DNA from: Streptomyces qaidamensis
GTDB lineage: Bacteria; Actinomycetota; Actinomycetes; Streptomycetales; Streptomycetaceae
Length of the DNA: 64,000 bases
Reading direction: 5' to 3'
Assembly (NCBI RefSeq): GCF_001611795.1
Contig: NZ_CP015098.1
Location: 1,364,001-1,428,000, forward strand
Made by a program: the position numbers and the translations under genes. Shown here one piece after another: positions 17,861 to 60,820 of this stretch (positions are counted from its first letter, which is position 1; each line of letters opens with the position of its first letter). Under the pieces are notes generated by a model. That model did not search any database. It saw only the letters and a list, made by a program, of their open reading frames with translations, and was not told where the DNA came from.

Positions 17861-18060
17861 TGAGGCGTCATTCGCACCGGTGAGGCGTCATTCGCACCTG
17901 TGAGACGTGATGCGCACCTGTGAGACGTGATGCGCACCGGTGAGATGTGATCCGTAACAGTGAGACGTGATCCATGACAGTGAGACGTGATCGTACCGGC
18001 GGGACGCGGTCCGTGCCGCTGAAGCCTCCTCCCTGCCGGTGAGGCGGCAGCCGTGCCGGT
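17861..18060. repeat. 20-bp tandem repeat (seven good and about four decayed copies)
   Basis: Six successive units start exactly every 20 bp at 17861, 17881, 17901, 17921, 17941 and 17961, with consensus TGAGACGTGATGCGCACCGG. A seventh (17981) is 19 bp long. Units from about 18000 to 18060 are degenerate. The array fills most of the 330-bp gap between the divergent MHYT and methyltransferase genes and ends 18 bp before the methyltransferase start. The remaining 113 bp next to the MHYT gene has an AT-richer patch (17795-17820) that may hold its promoter. Confidence 0.9.
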
Positions 18061-36087: not shown

Positions 36088-37170
36088 TCAGGGGGCCTCA
36101 AGGTCGGCCAGTGCGGCCAGTGCCTCCCGGTGGGCGCCCGCCGTGCCGTAGGCGATCGAGTCGGCCTTGGCGCGCTTGAGGTACAGGTGCACGGGGTGCT
36201 CCCACGTCATGCCGATGCCGCCGTGCAGTTGCAGGGCTTCCTCGGCGGCGTGCACGGCCACGGGTGCCGCGTAGGCCTGGGCGACGGTGACGGCCACGTC
36301 CACGTCGTCGCCGTTCGCCAGGGCGTCGGCGGCGTTGCGGGCGGCCGCACGGGTGTTGACGACCTCCAGCCACAGCTGGGCCAGCCGGTGCTTGACCGCC
36401 TGGAAGCCGCCGACGGGCCGGTTGAACTGTTTGCGTTCCTTCAGGTAGCGGACGGTCTCCGTCAGCGTCCACTCGGCGAGCCCGAACTGCTCGGAGGCGA
36501 GCAGCCCGGCGCCGGCGCGCAGGGCTCGGCGCACGGCGGGTTCGGCGTCGCCCAGCAGCCGGCCCGGCGCTCCGTCGAGGGTGACGGTCGCGAGCGGCCG
36601 GGTCAGGTCCAGGGAGATCTGGGGCGTGACGGTCGCGGTGGTGGCGTCGACGGCGTACAGACCGCCGTCGTCGGCGGGAACGAGCAGCACGTCGGCGACG
36701 GCCGCGTCGGCGATGCCGGTCAGTTCGCCGTGCAGCAGCCCGTCCTCGTGCCGGACGACCCGGTATGCGGCGCCCGGTGCGACGTTGAGGGCGACCGCGA
36801 GGGCGCCGATCGTCGTGCCGGTCGCGAGGTCGCGCAGGAGGTCGTCGGTGCCGCAGGCCAGCAGGGCTTCGGTGGCGACGACCGCGCTCGTCAGGTACGG
36901 CACGGGCGCGACCGCGCGTCCCAGTTCCTCCAGCACGACGGCGGCTTCGCGGTGCGTGGCGCCCTGGCCGTCGAGTTCCTCGGGAACCAGCAGGCCGGCG
37001 AGGCCCATGCCGTCGGTGAGTGCCTTCCACAGGGCCAGGTGGTGCGGGGTGCCCGACTCGGTGCGGGCGATGACGCCGGGGGCGTCGCAATGGTCGGTGA
37101 GCAGGTCGCGCACGGCGGCGCGCAGCGCCTCTTCCTCTTCCGAGTACAACAGGTCGCGCTCGTTCTTCAC
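36088..37170 (-). CDS. Acyl-CoA dehydrogenase family protein (short subunit)
   Basis: 360 residues. The acyl-CoA dehydrogenase fold is clear: EEEEALRAAVRDLL, GLAGLLVPEELDGQGATHREAAVVLEELGRAVAPVPYLTS, then YLKERKQFNRPVGGFQAVKHRLAQLW and EEALQLHGGIGMTWEHPVHLYLKRAK. The usual active-site Glu before the last motif seems to be in EEALQLHGG. Its start overlaps the stop of the preceding dehydrogenase (ATGA, 37167-37170). Such pairs form alpha2beta2 heteromeric dehydrogenases in actinobacteria, for instance in sterol side-chain degradation; the substrate here is unproved. Confidence 0.88.
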   Translation of the reverse strand: MKNERDLLYSEEEEALRAAVRDLLTDHCDAPGVIARTESGTPHHLALWKALTDGMGLAGLLVPEELDGQGATHREAAVVLEELGRAVAPVPYLTSAVVATEALLACGTDDLLRDLATGTTIGALAVALNVAPGAAYRVVRHEDGLLHGELTGIADAAVADVLLVPADDGGLYAVDATTATVTPQISLDLTRPLATVTLDGAPGRLLGDAEPAVRRALRAGAGLLASEQFGLAEWTLTETVRYLKERKQFNRPVGGFQAVKHRLAQLWLEVVNTRAAARNAADALANGDDVDVAVTVAQAYAAPVAVHAAEEALQLHGGIGMTWEHPVHLYLKRAKADSIAYGTAGAHREALAALADLEAP

Positions 37171-38348
37171 CGGGCCAGGTCCTTCCAGGCGACGTCCTTG
37201 TCGGTGCGCGGCTCGGGGGGCAGGCCCAGGACGCGCTCGGCGACGATGTTCAGCAGGACCTCGCTGGTCCCGCCCTCGATGCTGTTGCCCTTGGAGCGAA
37301 GGTAGCGGTAGCCCGCGTCACGGCCGGTGAAGTCGACCAGCTCCGGGCGCCGCATGGTCCAGTCGTCGTACAGCAGGCCCTCCTCGCCGAGGAGCTCCAC
37401 CTCCAGGCCGCTGATCTCCTGGTTGAGGCGGGCGAAGGCCAGCTTCATGCCGGCGCCCTCGGGGCCGGGCTGGCCCGCGACGAGCTGCTGGCGCAGCCGC
37501 TCGGCGGTGAGGCGGGAGACCTCGGACTCCACCCACAGCTTCAGCAGCCGCTGGTGCAGGTCGTGGGTGCGCAGTTCGGGCCGCTCGCGCCAGGTCTTCG
37601 AGATCGGGCCGATCATGCCGCCCTCGCGGGGCAGTCGCATGCCGCCGATGGCCACGCGCTCGTTGTTGAGCGTGGTCTGGGCGACCTTCCAGCCGTCGCC
37701 GATCTCGCCGAGGCGGCGCGTGTCGGAGATGCGGACGCCGGTGAGGAACACCTCGTTGAACTCGGCCTCGCCGGTGACCTGCCGCAGCGGGCGCACCTCG
37801 ACGCCCGGATCGGTCATGTCGCACACGAAGTACGTGATGCCCCGGTGCTTGGGCACGTCCGGGTCGGTGCGGGCGATGAGGATCGCCCAGCGGGCGACAT
37901 GGGCGCTGGACGTCCAGACCTTCTGCCCGTTGACGACCCAGTCCTCGCCTGCGCGCACGGCCCGGGTGCCCAGGGCGGCGAGGTCGGATCCGGCGCCCGG
38001 CTCGCTGAACAGCTGGCACCAGACCTCCTCCCCCGTCCACAACGGCCTGAGGAACCGCCGCTTCTGCTCCTCGGTGCCGAACTGGAGGATCGTCGGCGCG
38101 GCCATACCCAGGCCGATGCCGATGCGCCGCGGGTCGTTGTCGGGCGCCCCGGCGCTCTCCAGCTCGGCGTCCACGACGGACTGCAGGGAGCGGGGAGCGC
38201 CGAGTCCGCCGAGGCCCTCCGGGTAGTGGACCCAGGCGAGTCCGGCGTCGAAGCGGGCCCGCAGGAAGTCCAGGCGGTCGGTGGAGGCCGGCGGATGGGC
38301 CGCCAGCAACTCCCGGGTACGGCTGCGCAGTTCCTCGGCGCCGGTCAT
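37167..38348 (-). CDS. Acyl-CoA dehydrogenase family protein (long subunit)
   Basis: 393 residues. It contains FAD and acyl-CoA-binding landmarks: HYPEGLGGLGAPRSLQSVV, WCQLFSEPGAGSDLAALGTRAVR, NGQKVWTSSAHVARWAILIARTDP, and RYLRSKGNSIEGGTSEVLLNIVAERVLGLP. It is coupled at both ends: its start overlaps the quinone oxidoreductase stop (38345-38348) and its stop overlaps the shorter dehydrogenase. It is probably the partner subunit of the 36088-37170 protein. Confidence 0.92.
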   Translation of the reverse strand: MTGAEELRSRTRELLAAHPPASTDRLDFLRARFDAGLAWVHYPEGLGGLGAPRSLQSVVDAELESAGAPDNDPRRIGIGLGMAAPTILQFGTEEQKRRFLRPLWTGEEVWCQLFSEPGAGSDLAALGTRAVRAGEDWVVNGQKVWTSSAHVARWAILIARTDPDVPKHRGITYFVCDMTDPGVEVRPLRQVTGEAEFNEVFLTGVRISDTRRLGEIGDGWKVAQTTLNNERVAIGGMRLPREGGMIGPISKTWRERPELRTHDLHQRLLKLWVESEVSRLTAERLRQQLVAGQPGPEGAGMKLAFARLNQEISGLEVELLGEEGLLYDDWTMRRPELVDFTGRDAGYRYLRSKGNSIEGGTSEVLLNIVAERVLGLPPEPRTDKDVAWKDLAR

Positions 38349-39310
38349 GCTGCCTCCTCCATGACGACCGCGATCCTGCCGGTGGTCAGACCGTCGGCCA
38401 CCTTCTGCACGGCGCCGGCGGCGCCGCCGAGCGGCACGCGCTCGCTCACCAGCGGCTTGATGGCGCCCCGGGCGGCCAGGCCGGTGAGCTGCTCGTGGCA
38501 GTGCTGGACCAGCTTGGGGTTCTTGGTGTTGTACAGGCCCCAGTGCAGGCCGAGGATCGAGTAGTTCTTCACCAGGGCGTGGTTCAGGCCCGGGCTGGGG
38601 ATGGTGCCGCTGGCGAAGCCGACGACCACGATGCGTCCTTCGAAGGCGACGGCCTTGGCGGACTGGGTGTAGGCCTCGCCGCCGACCGGGTCGTAGATCA
38701 CGTCGGCGCCCCGGCCGCCGGTGGCCTCCTTGACGGCGGCGACGACGTCCTCGCAGCGCCGGTCGATCACGACGTCACAGCCCAGCTCGCGGGCGACGGA
38801 CGCCTTCCCGGAGCCGCCGACGACACCGATGACGGTGGCGCCGGCGGCCTTCCCGAGCTGCACGGCCGCGCTGCCGACCCCTCCAGCGGCAGCGTGGACG
38901 AGCAGGGTCTCGCCGGCCTCCAGACCGGCCCGGCGGTGCAGGCCGAACCAGCCGGTCTGGTAGCCGATGTGCAGGGCCGCTGCCTCGGCGTCGTCCAGGG
39001 CGTCCGGCGCGGGCAGCAGCGTGGCGGCGTCCGCGACGGCGTACTCGGCGAAGCCGCCGTGGGGCAGCGCCGGGTTGGCGATCACCCGGCGGCCGTCCTC
39101 GGTCTCGCCGCAGATCTCCACGCCCGGGGTGAACGGCAGCGGCGGCCTGACCTGGTACTGGCCGCGGCAGAGCAGGGCGTCCGGGAAGTTGATGTTGGCC
39201 GCACGCACCTTCAGCAGGACCTGGCCGTCACCGGGGGTGGGCGGCTCCACGTCCTGGAGCCGCATCACCTCGCCCGGCTCGCCGTTCTCGTGCACTTGCC
39301 ATGCCTGCAT
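38345..39310 (-). CDS. NADPH:quinone oxidoreductase family protein (zinc-independent MDR)
   Basis: 321 residues from ATG 39310 (MQAWQVHENGEPGEVMRLQDVEPPTPGDGQVLLKV). The longer open frame to 39466 runs into a tandem repeat and is not used. Medium-chain reductase fold: PFTPGVEICGETEDGRRV, LLVHAAAGGVGSAAVQLGKAAGATVIGVVGG (NADPH site), GADVIYDPVGGEAY and GRIVVVGFASGTIP. The zinc-binding cysteines are absent. It probably reduces enoyl/quinone-type substrates, and is the first gene of the three-gene acyl-CoA operon. Confidence 0.93.
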   Translation of the reverse strand: MQAWQVHENGEPGEVMRLQDVEPPTPGDGQVLLKVRAANINFPDALLCRGQYQVRPPLPFTPGVEICGETEDGRRVIANPALPHGGFAEYAVADAATLLPAPDALDDAEAAALHIGYQTGWFGLHRRAGLEAGETLLVHAAAGGVGSAAVQLGKAAGATVIGVVGGSGKASVARELGCDVVIDRRCEDVVAAVKEATGGRGADVIYDPVGGEAYTQSAKAVAFEGRIVVVGFASGTIPSPGLNHALVKNYSILGLHWGLYNTKNPKLVQHCHEQLTGLAARGAIKPLVSERVPLGGAAGAVQKVADGLTTGRIAVVMEEAA

Positions 39311-39362
39311 GCGGGGCCTCCACGGGGGACTGCTGTGTCTGACCGGGGTCGGTTCGCATACT

Positions 39363-39374
39363 AAGCGGTCGCTT
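39363..39374. promoter_or_regulatory. Probable TetR-type operator upstream of the acyl-CoA operon
   Basis: AAGCG-GT-CGCTT is a perfect 5-bp-arm dyad within the longer ATACTAAGCGGTCGCTTG. It lies 53 bp before the quinone oxidoreductase start. AAGCG/CGCTT dyads are common binding sites of TetR repressors of fatty-acid and acyl-CoA genes in actinobacteria. No TetR gene lies next to it. Confidence 0.55.
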
Positions 39375-39430
39375 GCCCATGAGGGAACAGGTGCCGGGCA
39401 AATCCCGCCCGGGGGATTCCCTTGGGTGGC

Positions 39431-39612
39431 GCGCCTTCCCTGCCCGGAGGGCCTCCCGTACGTCACGCGCCCTTCCCCGCCCAGAGGGCCTCCCGTACGT
39501 CACCGCCCTTCCCTGCCCGGAGGGCCTCCCGTACGTCACGCGCCCTTCCCTACCCGGAGGGCCTCCCGTACGTCACGCGCCCTTCCTGCCCGGAGGGCCT
39601 CCCGTGCGTCAC
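39431..39612. repeat. 36-37-bp tandem repeat, five copies
   Basis: Units start at 39431, 39467, 39504, 39540 and 39577. Each consists of a CCCTTCCC-type pyrimidine tract, the dyad GGAGGGCCTCC, and the segment CCGTACGTCAC containing the palindrome CGTACG. Copies differ at one to three positions. The last copy contains the TGA stop (39609-39611) of the XRE-cupin gene. The array covers most of the 298-bp gap between that gene and the acyl-CoA operon, and the gap holds no gene. Confidence 0.92.
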
Positions 39613-40181
39613 GCGCCCTTCGGCCGCGCCCGCACATGCATCCGCTCGCCCTGCGGCCCGAACAGGCTGAGGAACTCCACCGGCCCCTCCCCCGTCGACC
39701 CGAACCAGTGCGGTACCCGGGTGTCGAACTCGGCGGCCTCCCCCGCCGTGAGCACCACGTCGTGCTCGCCCAGCACCAGGCGCAGCCTCCCGGACAACAC
39801 GTACAGCCACTCGTAGCCCTCGTGCGTCCGGGGATCCGGCTCCTGCCTGCGCTTCGGTTCGAGGACCTTGTAGGCCTGCAGGCCGCCGGGCTGGCGGGTG
39901 AGCGGCCAGTGGGTGCGGCCGCCCATCACGATCGGCTTGGACCGCACGCGCGGATCACCGGTCGGCGGGGCGCCGACCAGCTCGTCCAGCGCCACCTGGT
40001 GGGCGCGCGCGATCGGCAGCAGCAGTTCCAGACTGGGTTTACGCAGGCCGGACTCCAGCCGCGAGAGGGTGCTGACGGAGATGCCGGTGGTCTCGGAGAG
40101 CGCCGCCAGGGTCACCTCCCGGTCCTTGCGCATCTGCCGCAGCCGGGGGCCCACGCCCGCGAGTACCTCGTCCGTCGTCAT
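39609..40181 (-). CDS. XRE-family regulator with C-terminal cupin domain
   Basis: 190 residues. Helix-turn-helix at about 12-66 (LRQMRKDREVTLAALSETTGISVSTLSRLESGLRKPSLELLLPIARA). The cupin sensor domain lies at about 110-185 (THEGYEWLYVLSGRLRLVLGEHDVVLTAGEAAEFDTRVPHWF...EFLSLFGPQGERMHV). Such proteins repress nearby oxidoreductase or amine genes and sense small ligands. It is divergent from the thioredoxin-reductase-like gene across 76 bp and likely controls it. The promoter appears leaderless, with TTGACA as -35. Confidence 0.93.
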   Translation of the reverse strand: MTTDEVLAGVGPRLRQMRKDREVTLAALSETTGISVSTLSRLESGLRKPSLELLLPIARAHQVALDELVGAPPTGDPRVRSKPIVMGGRTHWPLTRQPGGLQAYKVLEPKRRQEPDPRTHEGYEWLYVLSGRLRLVLGEHDVVLTAGEAAEFDTRVPHWFGSTGEGPVEFLSLFGPQGERMHVRARPKGA

Positions 40182-60754: not shown

Positions 60755-60820
60755 GCGCGGGCTGTACCGGGGGCGCCGGAGGAGGAGCGCGGGCTGTACC
60801 GGGTGCGCTGGAGGAGGAGC
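60755..60820. repeat. 32-bp tandem duplication downstream of rocD
   Basis: Two 34-bp copies (60755-60788 and 60787-60820) with only two differences, overlapping by 2 bp; period 32 bp. Each contains GCGCGGGCTGTACCGGG and GGAGGAGGAGC. This starts the non-coding stretch 60688-61498. Confidence 0.85.

Follow-up and report, generated by a model that had tools for sequence, protein, structure and literature searches.

A five-copy tandem repeat spanning the stop codon of an XRE-cupin gene in Streptomyces qaidamensis, and the variable spacer in which it lies

The locus and its array

The DNA analysed here, hereafter the window, is a stretch of 64,000 nucleotides (bases 1364001-1428000) from the genome of Streptomyces qaidamensis, which consists of one contig of 9.08 Mb. 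On its minus strand, a regulator gene of the XRE (HTH) type with a cupin domain (39609..40181) is followed by a tandem array (39429..39621), a quinone oxidoreductase gene of the ADH family (QOR; 38345..39310) that opens the downstream operon, and two acyl-CoA dehydrogenase genes (37167..38348 and 36088..37170). Pfam matches identify all four proteins, in agreement with a preliminary description that had placed the repeat between a regulator gene and an acyl-CoA operon; the ATG of QOR was taken from a position conserved in relatives.

TRF reports the array at 39429-39621 with a period of 37, 5.2 copies, 92% matches and a score of 335. Five units of the form GTGACG[CT]ACGGGAGGCCCTC[CT]GGG...GGAAGGGCGC adjoin head-to-tail without spacers. 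Their starts, marked by GTGACG[CT]ACG on the minus strand, lie at 39612, 39576, 39539, 39503 and 39466, giving a spacing of 36, 37, 36 and 37 bp, so that no reading frame is kept. Two tests against dinucleotide shuffles returned z scores of 34.7 and 31.3, with 0 of 40 shuffles scoring as high. The five-copy, 36-37-bp repeat of alternating unit length drawn in the preliminary description is thus real, with one correction: it had assigned the same dyad and the palindrome CGTACG to every unit, while each is found in four of the five. The dyad GGAGGGCCTCC is exact in four units and reads AGAGGGCCTCC in the remaining one; one unit has CGTGCG in place of the palindrome.

With near-identical units of 10 to 100 bp copied head-to-tail without spacers, the array has the structure of a minisatellite or variable number of tandem repeats (VNTR) locus. 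It is not a CRISPR array, in which unique spacers would separate the units.

Derivation from the end of the XRE-cupin gene

The unit at the highest coordinates, which is the first in the direction of transcription, contains the TGA stop codon of the XRE-cupin gene (39609-39611), as had been claimed from the sequence at the outset. Read in the direction of the gene, the 3' end is ...CCG AAG GGC GCG TGA, and the repeated segment, GGAAGGGCGCGTGACGTACGGGAGGCCCTCCGGGCAG, consists of the last ~10 nt of the gene, which open the unit, the stop codon and ~24 bp of downstream sequence. Within each unit, AAGGGCGCGTGACG repeats the final codons of the gene together with its stop. Streptomyces sp. D2-8 carries the downstream part of the unit in single copy (TGACGCACGGGAAGCCCTCCGGGCGGGACTTTGCCC), directly joined to the segment that also adjoins the array in S. 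qaidamensis (...CCCTCCGGGCGGGACTTTGCCCGG...). Because the unit repeats the end of the XRE-cupin gene, and because D2-8 has the downstream part once, the array represents the expansion of a segment lying across the stop codon. This bears out the earlier suggestion of growth out of the gene's 3' end, with D2-8 showing the single-copy state of the downstream part.

The orthologous spacer in related species

All 80 named relatives listed for the XRE-cupin protein are from Streptomyces. We chose 161 orthologous loci, of which 151 had a readable gap between the XRE-cupin gene and QOR. The ten dropped comprise nine in which no XRE gene was found upstream and one (L039) that lacks the 19-mer described below. 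Removal of duplicates left 143 distinct gaps, our own included. Since the orthologues come from related species, counts across these spacers are not independent samples. Repeats were sought in 142 of the gaps, the 1360-bp part from one locus (L099, genome G232) being skipped; measured as far as the start of QOR, the spacer of that locus is 1401 bp long and apparently includes inserted coding sequence.

The median distance from the stop codon to the 19-mer is 40 bp across the 142 gaps searched for repeats, as against 234 bp in S. qaidamensis. A significant tandem repeat was present in 31 of the 142, with periods from 11 to 46, and in 4 of 48 further spacers. The variation extends to the nearest relatives, a clade of 11 rows and nine distinct taxa (support 100/99) whose members are 95.5-97.8% identical to S. 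qaidamensis over 1011 nt of the XRE-cupin and QOR genes. Four of the nine taxa carry significant arrays that are unlike in unit: the 37-bp array of S. qaidamensis itself and, in the orthologous stop-codon region, a 26-bp repeat of ~2 copies in S. cahuitamycinicus (G138), a 13-bp repeat in Streptomyces sp. 378 (G320; ~5 copies by ungapped scoring, about 7 on visual inspection) and a 29-bp repeat of ~3-4 copies in a further taxon (G268). The spacers of the other five, namely S. massasporeus, S. iakyrus, S. paradoxus, D2-8 and G236, hold no significant repeat. We infer that the arrays arose separately, because both unit length and unit sequence differ; the tree supports the clade as a whole and does not order the branches within it.

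The locus had been described in advance as a variable-number repeat. At the level of comparison between species this is correct, as copy structure differs among close relatives, three of the nine taxa having arrays of other units and five having none. Absence of the repeat from close relatives, or its replacement by unrelated sequence, had also been named, together with unchanged expression of both neighbours, as the observation that would speak against a function, and for the sequence part this is what the clade presents.

A conserved module beside the array

A conserved module (39356-39389), separate from the array, lies between it and the operon. It is made up of the block TGTTCCC (39383..39389, minus strand), for which the role of a promoter -35 element may be considered, and a 19-mer, AAGCGACCGCTTAGTATGC (39356..39374, minus strand), located 54 bp beyond the array, which has the appearance of an operator or promoter, with an AAGCG/CGCTT dyad and a TAGTAT that could serve as a -10 element. 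When spacers are aligned on the 19-mer, conservation is near 2 bits across it and high at TGTTCCC, ~9-15 bp upstream; further upstream, base-by-base conservation is low, near background. Conservation in this gap is thus confined to the module, and the array has no part in it.

An unaltered 19-mer is present in 139 of the 143 distinct spacers. For one set of orthologues the 19-mer was itself part of the search query, and the other 80 loci were retrieved with the XRE protein alone; 76 of the latter yielded an extractable sequence, and every one of these has the 19-mer. In 119 genomes of the order, the 19-mer with at most one mismatch was found in 83, at one site each; these are 83 of the 104 same-genus genomes and none of the 15 others, while the reversed 19-mer, used as a control, had no match in genomes of the order. 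The S. qaidamensis genome contains a single exact copy, besides two sites that differ from it at three positions. At the nine loci where no XRE gene was found within ~770 bp upstream and other sequence takes its place, both TGTTCCC and the 19-mer are kept, so that the module functions independently of the array and, apparently, of the XRE gene.

The module is a putative promoter or operator. A scan with the sigma-70 consensus gave no promoter in it, and a string search of a literature collection did not find the first 16 bases of the 19-mer. By its contrast with the array, the 19-mer is an element of the gap that deserves study, and it may prove the more interesting of the two. In the spacer of L088/L249 (G299; Streptomyces sp. 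NRRL S-455), a partial second copy of the operator-like sequence (CAAGCGACCGCT) stands directly upstream of the full 19-mer.

Origin of the array and its relation to known repeats

We consider the array to be, with a probability of roughly 85%, an effectively neutral bacterial minisatellite that arose when sequence on both sides of a stop codon was duplicated in tandem. According to this model, the duplicated segment, of ~37 bp, straddled the stop of the XRE-cupin gene and was then multiplied until five copies stood in a row; slipped-strand mispairing or unequal exchange is the most likely process. As the first copy preserves the end of the gene, the additional copies would cost nothing; they would occupy the hypervariable stretch that separates the stop codon from the conserved operator- or promoter-like module of the acyl-CoA operon. 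The array looks young, species-specific and of an ordinary kind, and the spot looks as though it has given rise to arrays repeatedly.

Like other bacterial intergenic minisatellites and VNTR loci, the array consists of near-identical units of 10-100 bp placed head-to-tail between genes, and its copy structure varies among close relatives. It departs from the typical case in that its unit straddles a stop codon and in that the spacer has repeatedly yielded unrelated arrays. The MIRU-VNTR loci of mycobacteria are tandem repeats between co-directional genes, with units that overlap the upstream stop codon, and in both respects our array, whose unit overlaps the stop of an upstream co-directional gene, resembles them. 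The difference is that the MIRU units form one family dispersed over many loci, whereas the present unit occurs at one place only, and a dispersed family of this kind was rejected on that ground.

A survey of prokaryote satellites describes them as mostly short and the genome-wide spread of non-coding ones as rare (PMC6749651); our array, which is short and has not spread, agrees with it to that extent. The tandem repeats of Borg elements are described as rapidly evolving, recently formed and independently arising (PMC9879509), and this is the likeness; they pervade archaeal extrachromosomal elements, while here single loci of a bacterial chromosome are concerned. Among the papers listed by literature searches on Streptomyces minisatellites and VNTRs, and on bacterial tandem repeats at stop codons, no title concerned this locus. 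What the locus offers is the stepwise birth of a gene-end minisatellite in a GC-rich chromosome, with single-copy, two-copy and several independent array states among close sisters.

Arrays across the genome and the preference for stop codons

We surveyed 2.064 Mb of the genome: the window and 100 further segments, each of 20 kb, located from 1.5 to 7.57 Mb and so in the part between the chromosome arms. Gaps of 25-500 bp were delimited by a gene caller of our own, a script checked against the genes around the array only. The sample contains 49 strong intergenic arrays, distributed over 29 of 657 co-directional, 17 of 167 convergent and 3 of 215 divergent gaps. The array studied here ranks 13th of the 49 by ungapped score, and 8th by TRF score among 173 arrays that the caller places between genes, some of which may lie in uncalled genes. 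It therefore belongs to the upper tail of the genome's arrays and does not stand alone. Gaps upstream of both genes have fewer arrays than the others (3/215 versus 46/824; Fisher p = 0.006), as would be expected if arrays are tolerated where no promoter is needed. Six of the co-directional arrays span the upstream stop codon, and none the downstream start.

Two results run against a plain neutral picture. Repeats occur in this spacer at two to three times the rate of the co-directional gaps of the genome itself: 31 of 142 versus 24 of 261 (Fisher p = 0.0007), a comparison in which the species are related, gap lengths differ and the present array is counted among the 24, and 35 of 190 versus 24 of 261 with the later set (p = 0.005). 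In addition, of the 13 strong arrays at this locus, 8 begin within the stop-codon segment, where a simple uniform model predicts 2.6 (P = 0.0005). A similar tendency is seen in convergent gaps, with 5 of 14 against an expected 1.7 (P = 0.02); co-directional gaps of the same genome do not depart from expectation (3 of 10 versus 2.6, P = 0.48). Given several thresholds, related species and a simple null, we regard the excess and the preference as a lead, not a finding.

Taken at face value, they would mean that in Streptomyces this spacer, next to an operator that hardly varies, preferentially gives birth to minisatellites anchored at the stop codon: arrays of differing unit would arise there again and again, at a higher rate than in other gaps and over the stop codon more frequently than by chance. 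We think this unlikely. If it were true, it would point to a process linked to the ends of translation or transcription, such as slippage or breakage at the places where polymerase or ribosomes halt; selection that favours a renewable spacer or array of sites would be the alternative.

Proposed functions

The neutral minisatellite favoured above was weighed against three functions. The first, also raised in the preliminary description as cooperative protein binding, is an array of sites for a DNA-binding protein, such as the XRE regulator, reading the GTGACG segment common to most units of the different arrays. Units do open with (C/A)[GT]GACG in several species, and some of the longer spacers keep GTGACG near the promoter and away from the present stop codon. 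The segment is nevertheless accounted for by the sequence that normally surrounds a TGA stop, its distance from the 19-mer varies, and neither array nor dyad is kept in close relatives. TGACG is not enriched among the strong arrays of the genome, being present in 5 of 49 first units against an expected 3.4.

The search of the remaining genome for the unit, which had been recommended as a check, also argues against dispersed binding sites. With up to three mismatches, a 21-mer core of the unit matched the five places in the array and two others, both with three mismatches, so that no copy exists elsewhere in the genome within two mismatches. These results together make a binding array very unlikely.

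Searching the genome with the whole array added one further match, of 28 bp at 93%. The exact core, with two degenerate positions, had no match in collections of genome and viral contigs, which may not hold the records of this or near strains, and a plasmid search gave none. Across the genus, short matches to the array (E up to 0.01) were found in 201 of 392 genomes. Among the 30 loci stored, one was the window itself; the 29 others were inspected and include the orthologous site of S. cahuitamycinicus (L048) and an unrelated tandem locus (L046 in G385, ~1501-1566), whose units have the core GTGACGTACGG, similar to the start of our unit. Most of the rest are one recurring segment (GTACGGGTGGCCCTCCGGGTAGG...) that we take to be coding.

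A second possibility is a transcription terminator or attenuator, in which repeated RNA stem-loops would stop read-through from the XRE-cupin gene into the acyl-CoA operon. The position between two co-directional genes and the dyad exact in four of five units invite such a reading, as does an unusually stable fold of the plus strand (z = -2.85 against shuffles), from which neither flanking gene is transcribed. On the minus strand, which carries the genes, the fold of the array is ordinary (z = 0.20, with 114 of 200 shuffles equally stable), single units give z scores of 0.93 and -0.30, and the dyad, as read from the sequence, would form an RNA stem of 4 bp at most with a 3-nt loop. No terminator-like site occurs in 39250-39750, and the stem-loop plus U-run of an intrinsic terminator is not present on the transcribed strand. 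The dyad is broken in copy 2 of S. cahuitamycinicus, in G236 and in Streptomyces sp. 378, and no significant array is present in five of the nine clade taxa. Successive hairpins and termination of read-through, both put forward at the outset, accordingly find no support, and we hold this function to be highly improbable. A known structured RNA family was likewise rejected, Rfam giving no match in 39200-39800 on either strand at E up to 1.

A translational relay, in which the GTGA at every unit start (a start overlapping a stop) lets ribosomes restart from the XRE-cupin gene towards QOR, as has been proposed for mycobacterial MIRUs, is scarcely credible: the frame from unit 5 (GTG at 39466) does continue in frame into QOR, but that from the XRE stop closes at a TAG in unit 2, that from 39539 passes the QOR start out of frame to end at 39228, the promoter-like module lies in between, and spacer lengths in relatives keep no frame. 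We found no sign that the array controls its neighbours, and the case cautions against assuming that intergenic repeats rich in dyads are regulatory.

Two other repeats were observed in the window. One is a second array (17861-17992), of 20 bp and 6.6 copies of the type TGAGACGTGATGCGCACCGG, located in the divergent gap between a gene for an MHYT-domain protein and a methyltransferase gene; strong arrays are rare in such gaps (3/215), and its period is close to two helix turns. The other, at 60755-60820, is a direct repeat of 32 bp with 2.1 copies and 94% matches.
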